21,503 nucleotides of DNA. It comes from a virus. Location of the stretch: the IMG/VR virus record IMGVR_UViG_3300008450_000543, positions 1-21,503 of that record; one strand, 5' to 3'. Shown piece by piece: positions 3,109-12,879 of this stretch (position 1 is the stretch's first letter; every line of letters begins with the position of its first letter). The translations under genes and the position numbers were made by a program. Below the pieces are notes generated by a model. That model worked only from the letters and a program-made list of their open reading frames with translations, ran no database searches and was not told the DNA's origin.

Positions 3109-3575
3109 GTTGTCTTGTATGTTGTCGTTGATGTCTTTACAGGTGGCAAGATACGCACGAGCTCGCCGGTCTCTTCATTGACGATGGTGGTAGCGTTCTT
3201 GATGCTACGTAGGAACTTCTCCCGCTCCTTGCGGCGTGCGGTCAGGTCGTTGATGGCAGCTGTCAGGTCATTGTACTCGGCATCGTTGCAGCCTGAGTAG
3301 TCGTATTTAGTACCCGCCTCGATGACCTCGAAGGTAGCCCCGAATAGGACTATCTCTTCGCCCTTGGTGTAGGCGTTCAGCTCGTCAAGCACGCGGCCTC
3401 TGAGCTCGTCCTTGATAGCGTCGAACAGGTCGGTCATGGACTTGACGTTCAGCGCTACCTGCGTGGCCTTGAGGTGACCTTCGTCAATGAGTGAGATGAT
3501 GGATGCCGCACGATCGCGGATGATCTCTTTGGTGAGCGCTACTGGCTCGCTGTCTAGTTGGATGTCGGTGTTCAT
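3096..3575 (-). CDS. Conserved-looking partner gene of the ERF protein, 159 residues
   Basis: The protein has an N-terminal helical region (EIIRDRAASIISLIDEGH), a central part with the stretch GEEIVLFGATFEVIEAGTKYDYSG, then a helix with many charges (TARRKEREKFLRSI) and a polar C-terminus. From memory, phages that carry single-strand annealing proteins often have a neighbouring gene with this KYDYSG...KEREKFL pattern, but I know no assigned activity. It begins with an ATGA overlap (3572-3575) with the ERF gene, so the two are translationally coupled. A helper or regulatory role in recombination is inferred from this coupling only. Confidence 0.65.
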   Translation of the reverse strand: MNTDIQLDSEPVALTKEIIRDRAASIISLIDEGHLKATQVALNVKSMTDLFDAIKDELRGRVLDELNAYTKGEEIVLFGATFEVIEAGTKYDYSGCNDAEYNDLTAAINDLTARRKEREKFLRSIKNATTIVNEETGELVRILPPVKTSTTTYKTTWSK

Positions 3576-4192
3576 GCTTCGGTGAGTTGTTTAAGTTGTG
3601 ATGCGGTGATTTGATACTTCTGCTTGACCTGGTCTATGCTACCGCCGTTGGCGATGAACTTGGCCACCTCGGGTAGCTTCGACTCAGGCAGGTGTGGTAG
3701 AACGGCAGCCTGACTGTCATCGGCATCCGTGTCCTCGTCCGCGTTCAAATTTAGAAGGGCTGAAATAGCGTATCTTTTTAAGTACGTCAGCCCACCCCCC
3801 GCGTTTTGGAGTGCGTTGGTGTTGTTGCCTTGCATCGGTATGAAGCCGACCTTGCTGGCGATGAACTGACCGCTCACGTGCAGCAGTTGGGTGATGACCT
3901 CCGGGCCTGCAAGGGACTGAATCAGCATCAGCCCGTGCTTAGCAAGTGCAGGCTTGGTCTTGGCGATGATCTCGTCAAGGGTCGTGTAGCTGCGCGTTCT
4001 GCCACCTCCGACCGGTACGGTGCGGTCTTTGGTGATGCTGACGGGCTCCTTGTGGAACGCAAGCAGGGCGGCTAGTACCTTGTCCTGCGCGGTTGAAGTC
4101 CAATAGTTGTCGGTGTGCCAGGTGATCCCGCTGGCTGGGGCTTGAGGCGAGCCGCTGTGCTCGGTGTCAAGTAATTGTTTTGTTGCTCCCAT
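3572..4192 (-). CDS. ERF-family single-strand annealing protein
   Basis: ERF proteins anneal complementary single-stranded DNA and drive phage recombination and genome circularisation. The 206-residue product shows the family pattern: AALLAFHKEPVSITKD, then YTTLDEIIAKTKPALAKHGLM, the segment around residues 105-130, and the diagnostic GGGLTYLKRYAISALLNLNADEDTDAD (about 132-158), where the glycine run, Tyr-x-Lys-Arg-Tyr and acidic end are hallmarks. The C-terminal 45 residues form a small helical tail (ASQLKQLTEA) of the kind used for partner contact. Starts 8 nt after the winged-helix-like gene and overlaps the next gene by 4 nt. The nearby VRR-NUC nuclease makes a recombination module likely. 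Confidence 0.9.
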   Translation of the reverse strand: MGATKQLLDTEHSGSPQAPASGITWHTDNYWTSTAQDKVLAALLAFHKEPVSITKDRTVPVGGGRTRSYTTLDEIIAKTKPALAKHGLMLIQSLAGPEVITQLLHVSGQFIASKVGFIPMQGNNTNALQNAGGGLTYLKRYAISALLNLNADEDTDADDSQAAVLPHLPESKLPEVAKFIANGGSIDQVKQKYQITASQLKQLTEA

Positions 4193-4602: not shown

Positions 4603-4854
4603 TCATTGAAGACCAGCTGCCTCACGCTGCTCGCGTTGCTTGGCAAGGATGCGCTTAAGTTGTTCGACCCGGTCGGTGCGTTGCTTGATGATGGTTTGTG
4701 CATGTTTGATGATGAGTTGTGCTGTGTCATTGCGTTGAAGGCCTCTGAGGGATATTTGAACTGTCTTTGGTGTGACTCCGATTTCACGGGCGATAGTGCT
4801 TACGTCTCCGTATTCTAGAGATTCACGAAGATCTTTTAACTGATGCGCTTTCAT
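4603..4854 (-). CDS. Helix-turn-helix DNA-binding protein, 83 residues
   Basis: Residues 17-37 (DVSTIAREIGVTPKTVQISL) have the helix-turn-helix pattern with Ala-Arg-Glu at the start of the first helix, the Ile-Gly-Val turn and Thr-Val-Gln-Ile in the recognition helix. The remainder is one long basic helix (IIKQRTDRVEQLKRILAKQREQRE), probably for dimerisation. I start it at MKAHQLKDLRE (4852-4854), which gives an ordinary small phage regulator; the frame is open for 31 further codons, but that low-complexity threonine- and serine-rich stretch overlaps the upstream gene more deeply. It lies about 220 bp downstream of a repeat-rich promoter region and is a good candidate for an autoregulator of this operon. 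Confidence 0.7.
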   Translation of the reverse strand: MKAHQLKDLRESLEYGDVSTIAREIGVTPKTVQISLRGLQRNDTAQLIIKHAQTIIKQRTDRVEQLKRILAKQREQREAAGLQ

Positions 4855-5071
4855 GTATGATGTGTTGGATTTGTTCGCGTTGAGTGATGTAGTCGTTGAG
4901 CCACTTTCGGCAGTGGTCACCCCACCCGCCCTCTTGATAGCAGTCAATGAGTACTGCGAGGTGGCGCTTGGCTTCCTGATAGTTACCTTCAGTAAGGTGA
5001 CGGAGGATGACGTTCTCTAGGTGGCCGGTAAGGCGGGCAGCTATTTCGCAGCCTATATAGTCCTTGTTCAT
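4823..5071 (-). CDS. First gene of the recombination operon, hypothetical, 82 residues
   Basis: I do not recognise a family. The product starts MNKDYIGCEIAARLTGH, has a helical middle (LRHLTEGNYQEAKRHLAVLIDCYQ) and a Gly-Trp-Gly-Asp turn before a final helix. The ATG at 5069-5071 is chosen over an ATG at 5114-5116, because the 15 intervening codons consist of tandem repeats, a palindrome and a promoter-like element (separate entries) and encode a low-complexity peptide. With this start, five bases separate the promoter element from the ATG, implying a leaderless or nearly leaderless transcript. The end overlaps the HTH gene by 32 nt. Confidence 0.6.
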   Translation of the reverse strand: MNKDYIGCEIAARLTGHLENVILRHLTEGNYQEAKRHLAVLIDCYQEGGWGDHCRKWLNDYITQREQIQHIIHESASVKRSS

Positions 5072-5076
5072 GCCGT

Positions 5077-5084
5077 CAAAAGTA
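5077..5084 (-). promoter_or_regulatory. Promoter -7 element (TACTTTTG), Bacteroidota type
   Basis: On the minus strand this reads TACTTTTG, a full match to the Bacteroidota -7 consensus TAnnTTTG. It lies 5 nt before the chosen ATG at 5071. I see no -33 TTTG match 19-21 nt upstream; that place is taken by the repeats at 5087-5116, which suggests control by a bound regulator. Confidence 0.5.
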
Positions 5085-5086
5085 TA

Positions 5087-5116
5087 ACTTCCGGAAGTAT
5101 GGAAGTAGGGAAGCAT
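5087..5116. promoter_or_regulatory. Putative operator: 12-bp palindrome fused to three tandem 8-bp repeats
   Basis: On the plus strand, ACTTCCGGAAGT (5087-5098) is a perfect 12-bp palindrome. Its right half begins a run of three 8-bp units, GGAAGTAT (5093-5100), GGAAGTAG (5101-5108) and GGAAGCAT (5109-5116). The array lies immediately upstream of the promoter element at 5077-5084 and overlaps where a -33 element would be. This is the layout of a repressor or activator binding site. The HTH protein encoded at 4603-4854 is the nearest candidate ligand; that link is inference. Confidence 0.5.
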
Positions 5117-5162
5117 AAAAATAATTCCTAACTATCTGACATTCAGGCACAAAAAGTTACAC

Positions 5163-5194
5163 CTGAGCCGATTCCTACAGGCTCTGAGCCGATT
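5163..5194. repeat. Two 11-bp direct repeats, 21 bp apart
   Basis: CTGAGCCGATT occurs at 5163-5173 and again at 5184-5194, exactly 21 bp apart (two helical turns), between the metallophosphoesterase stop and the operator array. The second copy is part of an inverted repeat GGCTCTGAGCC (5180-5190), and on the minus strand GAGCC/GGCTC can pair around a 10-nt loop, followed by an ACTTTTTG stretch. It may be a second regulatory site, a weak terminator for the metallophosphoesterase gene, or both. Confidence 0.4.
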
Positions 5195-5196
5195 AT

Positions 5197-6210
5197 TTAC
5201 ACCAGCTCCCCGTCAATTATCTTGTAAAGCTTGACCCGGAAGGCACCCGCATCGTCTAGCCGTTCCACTATGCTGAAGCCGTGACACCATTGATTAATGC
5301 CGTAGGTGTATTCAGCGTCCAACCGGCAGAGGCACCCTTGCGCCCACGCTCCCTGCACATGGCCGTCCATCGTGCGGGTGATGTACTCTTGGTTCTGATG
5401 CCAATGGCCGAACAGCACGTTGGACTGCGTCTTCATGTAGTAGGTGCGGGCGATGTTGACTACGCCCATCCCTGCCCTGATCTCGTGGCCATGAATGATG
5501 TTCAGCCTGCCAAACTTGACCCCGATGTTGTCGGGTAGAAACACAATGCCGTGCTCGCCAAAGTTGATGATTCTATCAATGTTGAACAGGCCGTCAAACA
5601 TGCCAGCGTTCTCCTTGATCCACCTGTCCAGACGAGCCTCATGGTTGCCAAGCTTAAAGTAGATGGTGGCCTCAGGAAAGCGCTGCTTCAGCTGGTCAAC
5701 GAAGAAACGGAAGATGTCAATCTCAGCCTTGACACTAGGCTTGCGGCTATCCTTGCTGAACTTACTCAGCTGGTAGAAGTCAAGGATGTCACCGTTGAGC
5801 AGGATACTATCCACGCCCTTGTCCTTGCCCTCACGCAGGGCTATCATGAGCGCCTCGCGGTCGTGGTATGGGAAGTGGATGTCGGATAGCACTAGCATGC
5901 GCTTGTGTTCTACCGTAGTCCATGACAGGATGCTAGGCTCACCATGGTCAAGGTCGGCGATGGTAGAGTCAGATGCCTGGTCTTGCATCTTCAACTGAAT
6001 GAAGTTGTAGACCCGACGCGCATCGGCAAGCATACGCTGTGCATTGTCATTGAACTCTACCCCAAACTCACCACGATACCACTTCTGCACATCGGCAAGC
6101 ATGGCCTTGGGGTTGGCCACAATGAACTCATAAAGCTGATCGAACTCTTTCTCGTATATCTTAGGGCGCTGCGAATAGTGCTTGCATAGTATCCTGTATT
6201 CGGGTTTCAT
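5197..6210 (-). CDS. Metallophosphoesterase (calcineurin-like phosphatase fold)
   Basis: The 337-residue protein has all the metal-binding motifs of the calcineurin-like phosphoesterases in order: SDIH (Asp110, His112), LLNGDILD (Asp141), LGNHEARLD (Asn189, His190), IIHGHEI (His240) and FGHWHQNQE (His269, His271). Enzymes of this family cleave phosphomonoesters, phosphodiesters or nucleotides with two bound metal ions. An N-terminal region of about 100 residues (KHYSQRPKIYEKEF..., helical) precedes the catalytic domain and could bind nucleic acid or a partner. Many phages carry such enzymes near replication genes, but the substrate is rarely known. It directly abuts the upstream 95-residue gene and is the last gene before the repeat-rich control region. 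Fold certain, substrate unknown. Confidence 0.9.
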   Translation of the reverse strand: MKPEYRILCKHYSQRPKIYEKEFDQLYEFIVANPKAMLADVQKWYRGEFGVEFNDNAQRMLADARRVYNFIQLKMQDQASDSTIADLDHGEPSILSWTTVEHKRMLVLSDIHFPYHDREALMIALREGKDKGVDSILLNGDILDFYQLSKFSKDSRKPSVKAEIDIFRFFVDQLKQRFPEATIYFKLGNHEARLDRWIKENAGMFDGLFNIDRIINFGEHGIVFLPDNIGVKFGRLNIIHGHEIRAGMGVVNIARTYYMKTQSNVLFGHWHQNQEYITRTMDGHVQGAWAQGCLCRLDAEYTYGINQWCHGFSIVERLDDAGAFRVKLYKIIDGELV

Positions 6211-7814: not shown

Positions 7815-8025
7815 AGATGCGAGTCCAAAAGCGTTTGAATGATGTCTTGATAGGACTGCCGAGCAAGGTGTCTAGGCCGACGACTATGGCCACGCTATAG
7901 GATGTATGCTGAAGAGTGATGCTTAAATCTACCTCGCTGATGAATGCGCTGATGTGGCCGAGTACGATGAAGGCGCAGGAGCTAAGGAAGCCTTGTGCAG
8001 AACCGCTATCGATAGTGTTGCTCAT
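7798..8025 (-). CDS. Small membrane protein, holin candidate
   Basis: The 75-residue protein has two hydrophobic stretches, about residues 11-29 (GFLSSCAFIVLGHISAF) and 41-56 (SYSVAIVVGLDTLLG), and a basic C-terminus (KTSFKRFWTRICGKQR). Size, two membrane segments, basic tail and the 17-nt overlap with the endolysin gene match a class II-type holin. It is the first gene after the tail-module terminator, and a TAnnTTTG element ends five bases before its ATG (8023-8025), so it probably opens the lysis transcript. With a second holin-like protein at 7065-7274, one may be the holin and the other an antiholin or pinholin. Inferred from topology and context. Confidence 0.6.
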   Translation of the reverse strand: MSNTIDSGSAQGFLSSCAFIVLGHISAFISEVDLSITLQHTSYSVAIVVGLDTLLGSPIKTSFKRFWTRICGKQR

Positions 8026-8030
8026 GGATG

Positions 8031-8038
8031 CAAAGGTA
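8031..8038 (-). promoter_or_regulatory. Promoter -7 element (TACCTTTG) for the lysis genes
   Basis: On the minus strand TACCTTTG fully matches TAnnTTTG and ends 5 nt before the ATG at 8025, the same spacing as at 5077-5084. It lies 6 nt past the terminator hairpin. The -33 position falls inside the hairpin and shows no TTTG. A leaderless transcript would be expected. Confidence 0.45.
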
Positions 8039-8044
8039 AAGCAA

Positions 8045-8064
8045 GGGCCCCCCGAAGGGAGCCC
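8045..8064 (-). terminator. Strong UUCG-loop terminator of the virion operon
   Basis: On the minus strand GGGCTCCC pairs with GGGGGCCC (one T-G pair) around a TTCG loop: an 8-bp GC-rich stem with the extra-stable UUCG tetraloop, 15 nt past the tail-tube stop. It is followed by TTGCTTTACCTTTGC, only moderately T-rich. It most likely ends, or partly attenuates, transcription of the head and tail genes. Confidence 0.75.
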
Positions 8065-11997: not shown

Positions 11998-12879
11998 TCA
12001 GATTAGTGATGATCCCGCCTTAAAGTCGGCGAGTGCCTTGCTGGTCTGCGATTTGGCCGCAGGTGCAGCAGGCTTTGCGGGCATCGGTGTACCTACGGCT
12101 GCAGCGGTAGTGGTGACTACCCCTGGCGCTTTGTTGACCTTGAGTAGCTTCGCTTCAGCCAACACGCTATCCGTGAAACTACGCATATCAATGCTCTTAT
12201 TGTCAATCGTGAAAGGCAAGTCAGGCGCTTCGGCGTTGACGAGCTTGATGCCGTCCTCGGTGTAGAGGTACTTGCCGCCTTTCTCCCTGAGTTTCTTCTC
12301 CCAAAGATTGCGAGCCGTTGAGATAGTGACATCCTTGTCAAGGTCTAGCGCGTAGTCATATCCGCTGAAGATAGCGTTGAGTTCTTTGTCGGTGAGCTGA
12401 CTCTTCCAATGGCTGTTGACCTTGTCCACATCCTGCTTGCGTGCTTCGCGCTCGGTGTTGAGCAAGCCTTGCAGCTCGTTGATCTTGTCGACAAGGGCTT
12501 TTTTCTCGCCACCCGTTGCACTGATAGCCTTCTCCTTTGCTTCGGCAATCGCCTTGGATAGCATCGGGATCCGGTTGTAGGTGGACTGCTCGCTTAGGAT
12601 GGACTGCTTGATGTCATCATCGAAGCCGAACTCGTCAAGGACGTCCTTGATTTTGGTGTCAACGCTGTTGAGCGCGGTGGCGGTGAAGTGCTTCTTGACA
12701 ATCGGGTTGATCTTGGCCTCGTCTTCTGTCATCAGTCGAGACTGAGTCATGGACACAAGGGTCGAAGGTACCTGCACCTGCATAAGAGCAGGGTTGGTGA
12801 CTACCATCTTGATAGCCTCGTCAGCATTGTCAATGCCGATGCGGTCGGCTACCGTCTGGATATATTCAGCTAAGGTCAT
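11998..12879 (-). CDS. Scaffold-like protein
   Basis: The 293-residue protein sits directly before the capsid gene and has the composition of a scaffold: helical, charged and with a coiled-coil segment (about residues 120-160, KKALVDKINELQGLLNTEREARKQD). The C-terminus is low-complexity, alanine- and proline-rich (TTTAAAVGTPMPAKPAAPAAK) and ends KALADFKAG, as in many scaffold proteins whose tail contacts the capsid protein. N-terminal residues (EYIQTVADRIGIDNADEA) form a small helical domain. There is no recognisable maturation protease domain. The ATG at 12877-12879 overlaps the small upstream gene by 14 nt. Function inferred from position and composition. Confidence 0.65.
   Translation of the reverse strand: MTLAEYIQTVADRIGIDNADEAIKMVVTNPALMQVQVPSTLVSMTQSRLMTEDEAKINPIVKKHFTATALNSVDTKIKDVLDEFGFDDDIKQSILSEQSTYNRIPMLSKAIAEAKEKAISATGGEKKALVDKINELQGLLNTEREARKQDVDKVNSHWKSQLTDKELNAIFSGYDYALDLDKDVTISTARNLWEKKLREKGGKYLYTEDGIKLVNAEAPDLPFTIDNKSIDMRSFTDSVLAEAKLLKVNKAPGVVTTTAAAVGTPMPAKPAAPAAKSQTSKALADFKAGSSLI

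Follow-up and report, generated by a model that had tools for sequence, protein, structure and literature searches.

The regulators Aca1 and Aca2 repress their own operons, and their inverted repeats overlap the core promoter (PMC9410906, PMC8434428). Among Bacteroidota promoters, those of F. johnsoniae start transcription 4 to 5 nt after the -7 box and have a barely detectable -33 element (PMC6847099). Very short leaders are rare in such hosts; leaders under 10 nt account for 3.7% in B. thetaiotaomicron (PMC7366714), and 5.5% are leaderless in F. psychrophilum (PMC9723704).

Here, we analyze a locus that combines a promoter of this type with a layout resembling that of Aca-controlled operons. 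The window spans an entire viral record of 21.5 kb (21,503 nt), which is probably a fragment and carries its genes on the minus strand. In minus-strand order, a metallophosphoesterase gene is followed by a 125-nt intergenic stretch, gene A (82 aa), a gene for a helix-turn-helix (HTH) protein (83 aa) and, further on, an ERF recombinase gene. We consider it probable that positions 5069 to 5116 (minus strand) form the operator-promoter of the gene A-HTH-ERF operon, and that a dimer of the HTH protein binds a dyad there and represses the operon, i.e., negative autoregulation. The features are as follows.

5197 to 6210, minus strand: metallophosphoesterase gene, the syntenic anchor (Pfam Metallophos, PHROG 221; 63 to 66% identity in L002 and L003)
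5093 to 5116, plus strand: three tandem 8-bp repeats, half-sites in direct order (GGAAGTAT at 5093 to 5100, GGAAGTAG at 5101 to 5108, GGAAGCAT at 5109 to 5116)
5087 to 5098, no strand assigned: perfect 12-bp palindrome ACTTCCGGAAGT, not kept in relatives
5086 to 5107, minus strand: candidate operator dyad TACTTCCATACTTCCGGAAGTT (TACTT-N12-AAGTT), the sole TACTTN12AAGTW match in the window
5077 to 5084, minus strand: -7 promoter element TACTTTTG (TAnnTTTG, fitting TAHHTTTG), identical (TACTTTTGAC) in L002 and L003
5069 to 5071, minus strand: predicted leaderless ATG of gene A, 5 nt (ACGGC) after the -7 box; transcript start expected at 5071 to 5072
4823 to 5071, minus strand: gene A, ORF for an 82-aa three-helix protein, first gene of the operon (model pLDDT 89)
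4603 to 4854, minus strand: HTH gene (83 aa), the proposed autoregulator, kept in all syntenic loci (AlphaFold pLDDT 91.9)
3572 to 4192, minus strand: ERF single-strand annealing recombinase gene (Pfam ERF, E 6e-14; PHROG Erf-like)

In the model that we propose, a host sigma factor would read the -7 box and transcription would start at the ATG at 5071 or one base before, so that the mRNA would be leaderless. A dimer of the HTH protein, the product of the second gene, would bind the 22-bp dyad, which overlaps the -33/spacer region, and block RNA polymerase; the extra direct half-sites may take further HTH molecules. The operon, including the ERF recombinase, would be on at first, with expression presumably early, and be damped once the HTH protein accumulates.

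Relatives were gathered through a phosphoesterase search, an HTH alignment, and a second, wider phosphoesterase search. The related viral contigs that carry the HTH gene share the order metallophosphoesterase, intergenic promoter, HTH gene, and ERF recombinase. The intergenic stretch of the window aligns with those of L003 (score 60, shuffle maximum 34), L002 (48, shuffle maximum 32), and L012 (47, shuffle maximum 30), while the alignment with L017 was not convincing against shuffles. Single-sequence queries with gene A and ERF found no relatives in the viral contigs, a query with the HTH protein found none among annotated phages, and GTDB genomes searched with the HTH and phosphoesterase alignments yielded neither a host nor a prophage. 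The promoter type suggests that the host is probably a member of the Bacteroidota. Elsewhere in these contigs, predicted cytosine DNA methyltransferase genes lie downstream in L002 (8241 to 9377) and L010 (7123 to 8160), recognized by eye from the motifs GIGGF and GGFPCQPYS, and no counterpart was seen in the window; the window also has a 16-bp perfect palindrome within a coding region (TCAAGGACGTCCTTGA, 12635 to 12650).

Promoter and predicted leaderless start of gene A

Several observations bear on where the operon starts. First, TAnnTTTG alone is not enriched in the window (12 found versus 8.5 expected). However, TAHHTTTG with an ORF's ATG 4 to 6 nt further on occurs in nine de-duplicated cases in the phage group versus 0.25 for control motifs. 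Because this arrangement recurs across these phages, a leaderless start is credible, and the peak at 4 to 6 nt upholds the start at 5071 proposed in the sequence-only reading. Second, the 5-nt spacing between -7 box and ATG is also present in L003, L010, and L011. Third, the 4- to 5-nt spacing of F. johnsoniae would place the start of transcription at the first base of the ATG or at the base preceding it. The layout is not uniform: L018 is without a perfect -7 box, and in L002 and most of group B the ATG of the window and L003 is replaced by ATC, with a later start and a short leader. A second cluster of TAHHTTTG-to-ATG spacings lies near 28 to 33 nt in the phage group (contigs L141-L148 and the window). 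Altogether, leaderless starts are likely a habit of these phages, judging from their sequences, compared with about 4 to 6% of host transcripts. Another leaderless layout is present in the window at 8025 to 8062 (minus strand), in which TACCTTTG (8031 to 8038) is followed by CATCC and an ATG at 8025; immediately before this layout is a GC-rich hairpin (gggctcccttcggggggccc), which may mark the end of the gene upstream.

The sequence-only reading had named translation from the ATG at 5114 to 5116, which would make the repeats coding, as an outcome that would overturn it. From 5116 onward there is indeed an open frame of 97 aa. Nevertheless, we regard this alternative as extremely unlikely: no relative has a counterpart of that ATG, the alignment of the window with L003 has a 1-nt indel inside the element, a complete fold is predicted for the 82-aa product of the ATG at 5071, whose first helix begins at residue 3, and the -7 box with 5-nt spacing recurs.

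An automatic terminator call on the palindrome was rejected, as it overlaps the conserved promoter, and RNA folding of the leader region in the window gave nothing above shuffles (z 0.24). Between the phosphoesterase stop and the operator, L002 (6011 to 6068) and L003 (6014 to 6064) have a hairpin and, after it, seven consecutive T; this is likely a terminator and has no clear counterpart in the window. Right after its phosphoesterase stop, the window has an 11-bp direct repeat, CTGAGCCGATT (5163 to 5173 and 5184 to 5194; 5163 to 5194 overall), which was not seen in relatives.

The conserved 22-bp dyad

The palindrome, the three repeats, the TAnnTTTG match, and the ATG 5 nt further on, which had drawn attention to 5071 to 5116, are all present and can be read directly from the sequence. 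Perfect palindromes of at least 12 bp are ordinary in the window (7 versus 5.3 expected), so the palindrome alone means little. Three tandem 8-mers this alike are expected 0.155 times per random window, and the one case found lies within an intergenic promoter; the suggested search of the remaining sequence found TACTTCC only in this array. The two outer rungs of the array have counterparts in L003 (TGCTTGCG TACTTTTG). The rung nearest the palindrome is specific to the window and is replaced by AATTA in relatives; the triple repeat arises because ACTTC occupies the place of this AATTA. Thus, the three tandem repeats are not conserved as such. Instead, as judged from alignment, the conserved unit is the 22-bp dyad TACTT-N12-AAGTW (5086 to 5107), which has AATTA at its center in relatives.

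Among the contigs searched, four distinct phages (the window, L002, L003, and L018) have a single copy of TACTT-N12-AAGTW each, and no copy lies outside this promoter. The dyad sequences of the relatives are as follows.

L003: TACTTTTGTAATTACGGAAGTA
L002: TACTTTTGTAATTATCAAAGTA
L018: TACTTACGAAATTGCCCAAGTA
L064: TACTTGTGTAATTATAAAACTA

A consensus of 19 positions was built from L002 and L003 alone and compared with shuffles as the null. The window matches it at 15 of the 19 positions (p=0.001 in shuffles), and the scores of L018 and L064 were reached in none of 2000 shuffles. Weaker matches were found in L065, L010, L012, and L017, and L008 was not above chance (p 0.09). Dyad symmetry exceeds chance in the window, L002, L003, L018, and L064; among these strong cases the dyad of the window is the least symmetric, and its center differs from that of the 12-bp palindrome. 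The larger subgroup, L008-L017, is without the N12 dyad but keeps AATTAC-RAAAGT and two TGCTT half-sites, separated by one extra 8-bp step according to the gap in the L003-L017 alignment. A search for further operators in the contigs found none. A degenerate form of the operator pattern gave 29 matches in all viral contigs, with the HTH gene only in the two known relatives; the other matches look like chance, as none has the HTH gene.

Across loci, between 1 and 13 bp separate the dyad from the -7 box, whereas the half-site spacing is fixed, which fits a separate binding site rather than a promoter spacer. In the window, L002, L003, and L064, the dyad ends 1 to 2 bp before the -7 box, i.e., an inverted repeat overlaps the core promoter. 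These distances also bear on the idea that there is no operator, and that a promoter and its spacer have simply been kept by kinship, with the upstream TACTTTTG in L002 and L003 serving as a second -7 box of tandem promoters. That element does fit TAnnTTTG and in L003 precedes the ATG by about 29 nt, the 28- to 33-nt spacing is also enriched in these phages, and the whole intergenic region is alignable among the window, L003, and group B. By contrast, the window (TACTTCCA), L018 (TACTTACG), and L064 (TACTTGTG) have an upstream element that does not qualify as a -7 box but still retain TACTT at the N12 distance from the inverted half, and the distance to the real -7 box varies. We therefore hold the promoter-only explanation to be improbable.

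The HTH protein and the genes in front of it

The HTH protein is predicted to fold into four helices, which comprise a LacI-like HTH and, C-terminal to it, a helix of 37 residues that could serve in dimerization. Its best fold matches are LacI proteins (Foldseek probability 0.98 to 3h5t; VIA Z 6.3 over 45 residues, a middling value), and Aca2 (7vjq) is only a weak fold match; no significant family was found in Pfam, PHROGs, PADLOC, or NCBIfam.

The HTH gene tends to accompany the dyad, and in L010 and L011 it is the first gene behind the operator, where TAGGTTTG or TAGTTTTG is followed by TACCC and the ATG (5 nt after TTTG). Of the loci reached through the phosphoesterase alone, scores on the dyad consensus behind that gene are 14 to 19 of 19 for the five that carry the HTH gene and at most 13 for 72 of the 73 that do not. 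Since these 73 also have more distant phosphoesterases, this association is partly phylogenetic. Sequence comparison thus favors the HTH protein as the likely ligand, as had been suggested.

Alternatively, the dyad could be a real operator with a different ligand, a regulator from the phage or the host other than the HTH protein, or binding could activate the promoter by replacing the missing -33 contact. No TTG precedes the -7 box in the promoter stretch of the window, while most relatives have one 16 to 23 nt upstream. Direct repeats at 8-bp steps resemble the sites of MetJ- or omega-type ribbon-helix-helix proteins, which would favor another ligand; the HTH protein itself is not of this type, as its model has no strands. 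Against another ligand, the HTH gene is the only regulator-like gene in every syntenic locus, in addition to its first position in L010 and L011. Against activation, most relatives keep the -33-like TTG, and the absence of this element from the window is weak evidence because it is barely detectable in F. johnsoniae promoters (PMC6847099). We consider either version unlikely, if less so than the promoter-only explanation. The same reasoning divides the earlier argument that a bound protein probably controls this promoter because the repeats replace the -33 region: a conserved dyad and predicted operator does overlap the promoter of the HTH-ERF operon, but a missing -33 box does not require a protein in its place, given how weak this box is in Flavobacterium. 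Autoregulation by the HTH protein remains the reading that we prefer.

The stretch separating the operator from the HTH gene forms a slot whose content varies among phages, from 0 to about 5 small genes (L008-L019, L064, L065). In one subgroup the slot usually ends with gene A, whose homologs in L002, L003, L018, L064, and L065 are very divergent (17 to 37% identity); a fold search with gene A gave no useful match. The slot of L065 holds a DNA methyltransferase (4754 to 5620), and the other slot proteins had no informative family matches. By analogy of layout with acr-aca operons, the slot might be a cargo site for small, fast-changing counter-defense proteins, with operator and HTH gene as a new Aca-like signature in Bacteroidota phages. 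We regard this as doubtful; if the slot does carry such genes, operator and HTH gene could be used as bait for more.

Comparison with known systems

Autoregulation by an HTH protein from its own operon is a sensible but ordinary form of phage control. The locus offers a testable operator-regulator pair for an uncultured phage group, probably infecting Bacteroidota, in which regulation has been little studied, and in which leaderless starts are likely used repeatedly though they are rare in the likely hosts.

The promoter resembles sigma-ABfr (TAnnTTTG) promoters of Bacteroidota in the -7 box of the window, the 5 nt to the expected start, and the upstream TTG of most relatives. It differs in that the window is without a -33 TTTG and in its predicted near-zero leader, which is rare in hosts. 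By its middling fold match, the HTH protein would share with the LacI-family headpiece an HTH of the same layout; unlike LacI proteins, it has only 83 aa, consists of helices only, has no ligand-binding domain, and ends in a long C-terminal helix, and identity is low.

As in a lambda-type CI/Cro immunity region, a candidate operator overlaps a promoter beside a small HTH gene and recombination genes. Unlike that region, there is a single operator per contig, and no divergent repressor gene adjoins it in the window. The locus had been said to look like an autoregulated early switch; a lysis-lysogeny switch is not supported, since there is one dyad per contig and tyrosine integrase (PF00589) is absent from 10 contigs, which may be fragments.

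The closest likeness in layout is to the Aca autorepressors of acr-aca operons. Here, no known anti-CRISPR gene is present, the operon is an ERF recombination operon, and the promoter is of the Bacteroidota type. The families searched (Pfam, PHROG, PADLOC, NCBIfam) gave no significant match that would tie the HTH protein to an Aca family, and the likeness would be a functional parallel set by layout. In both, a small HTH protein is encoded within the operon that it is proposed to control, an inverted repeat lies within the core promoter, and variable small genes are found between the promoter and the HTH gene.
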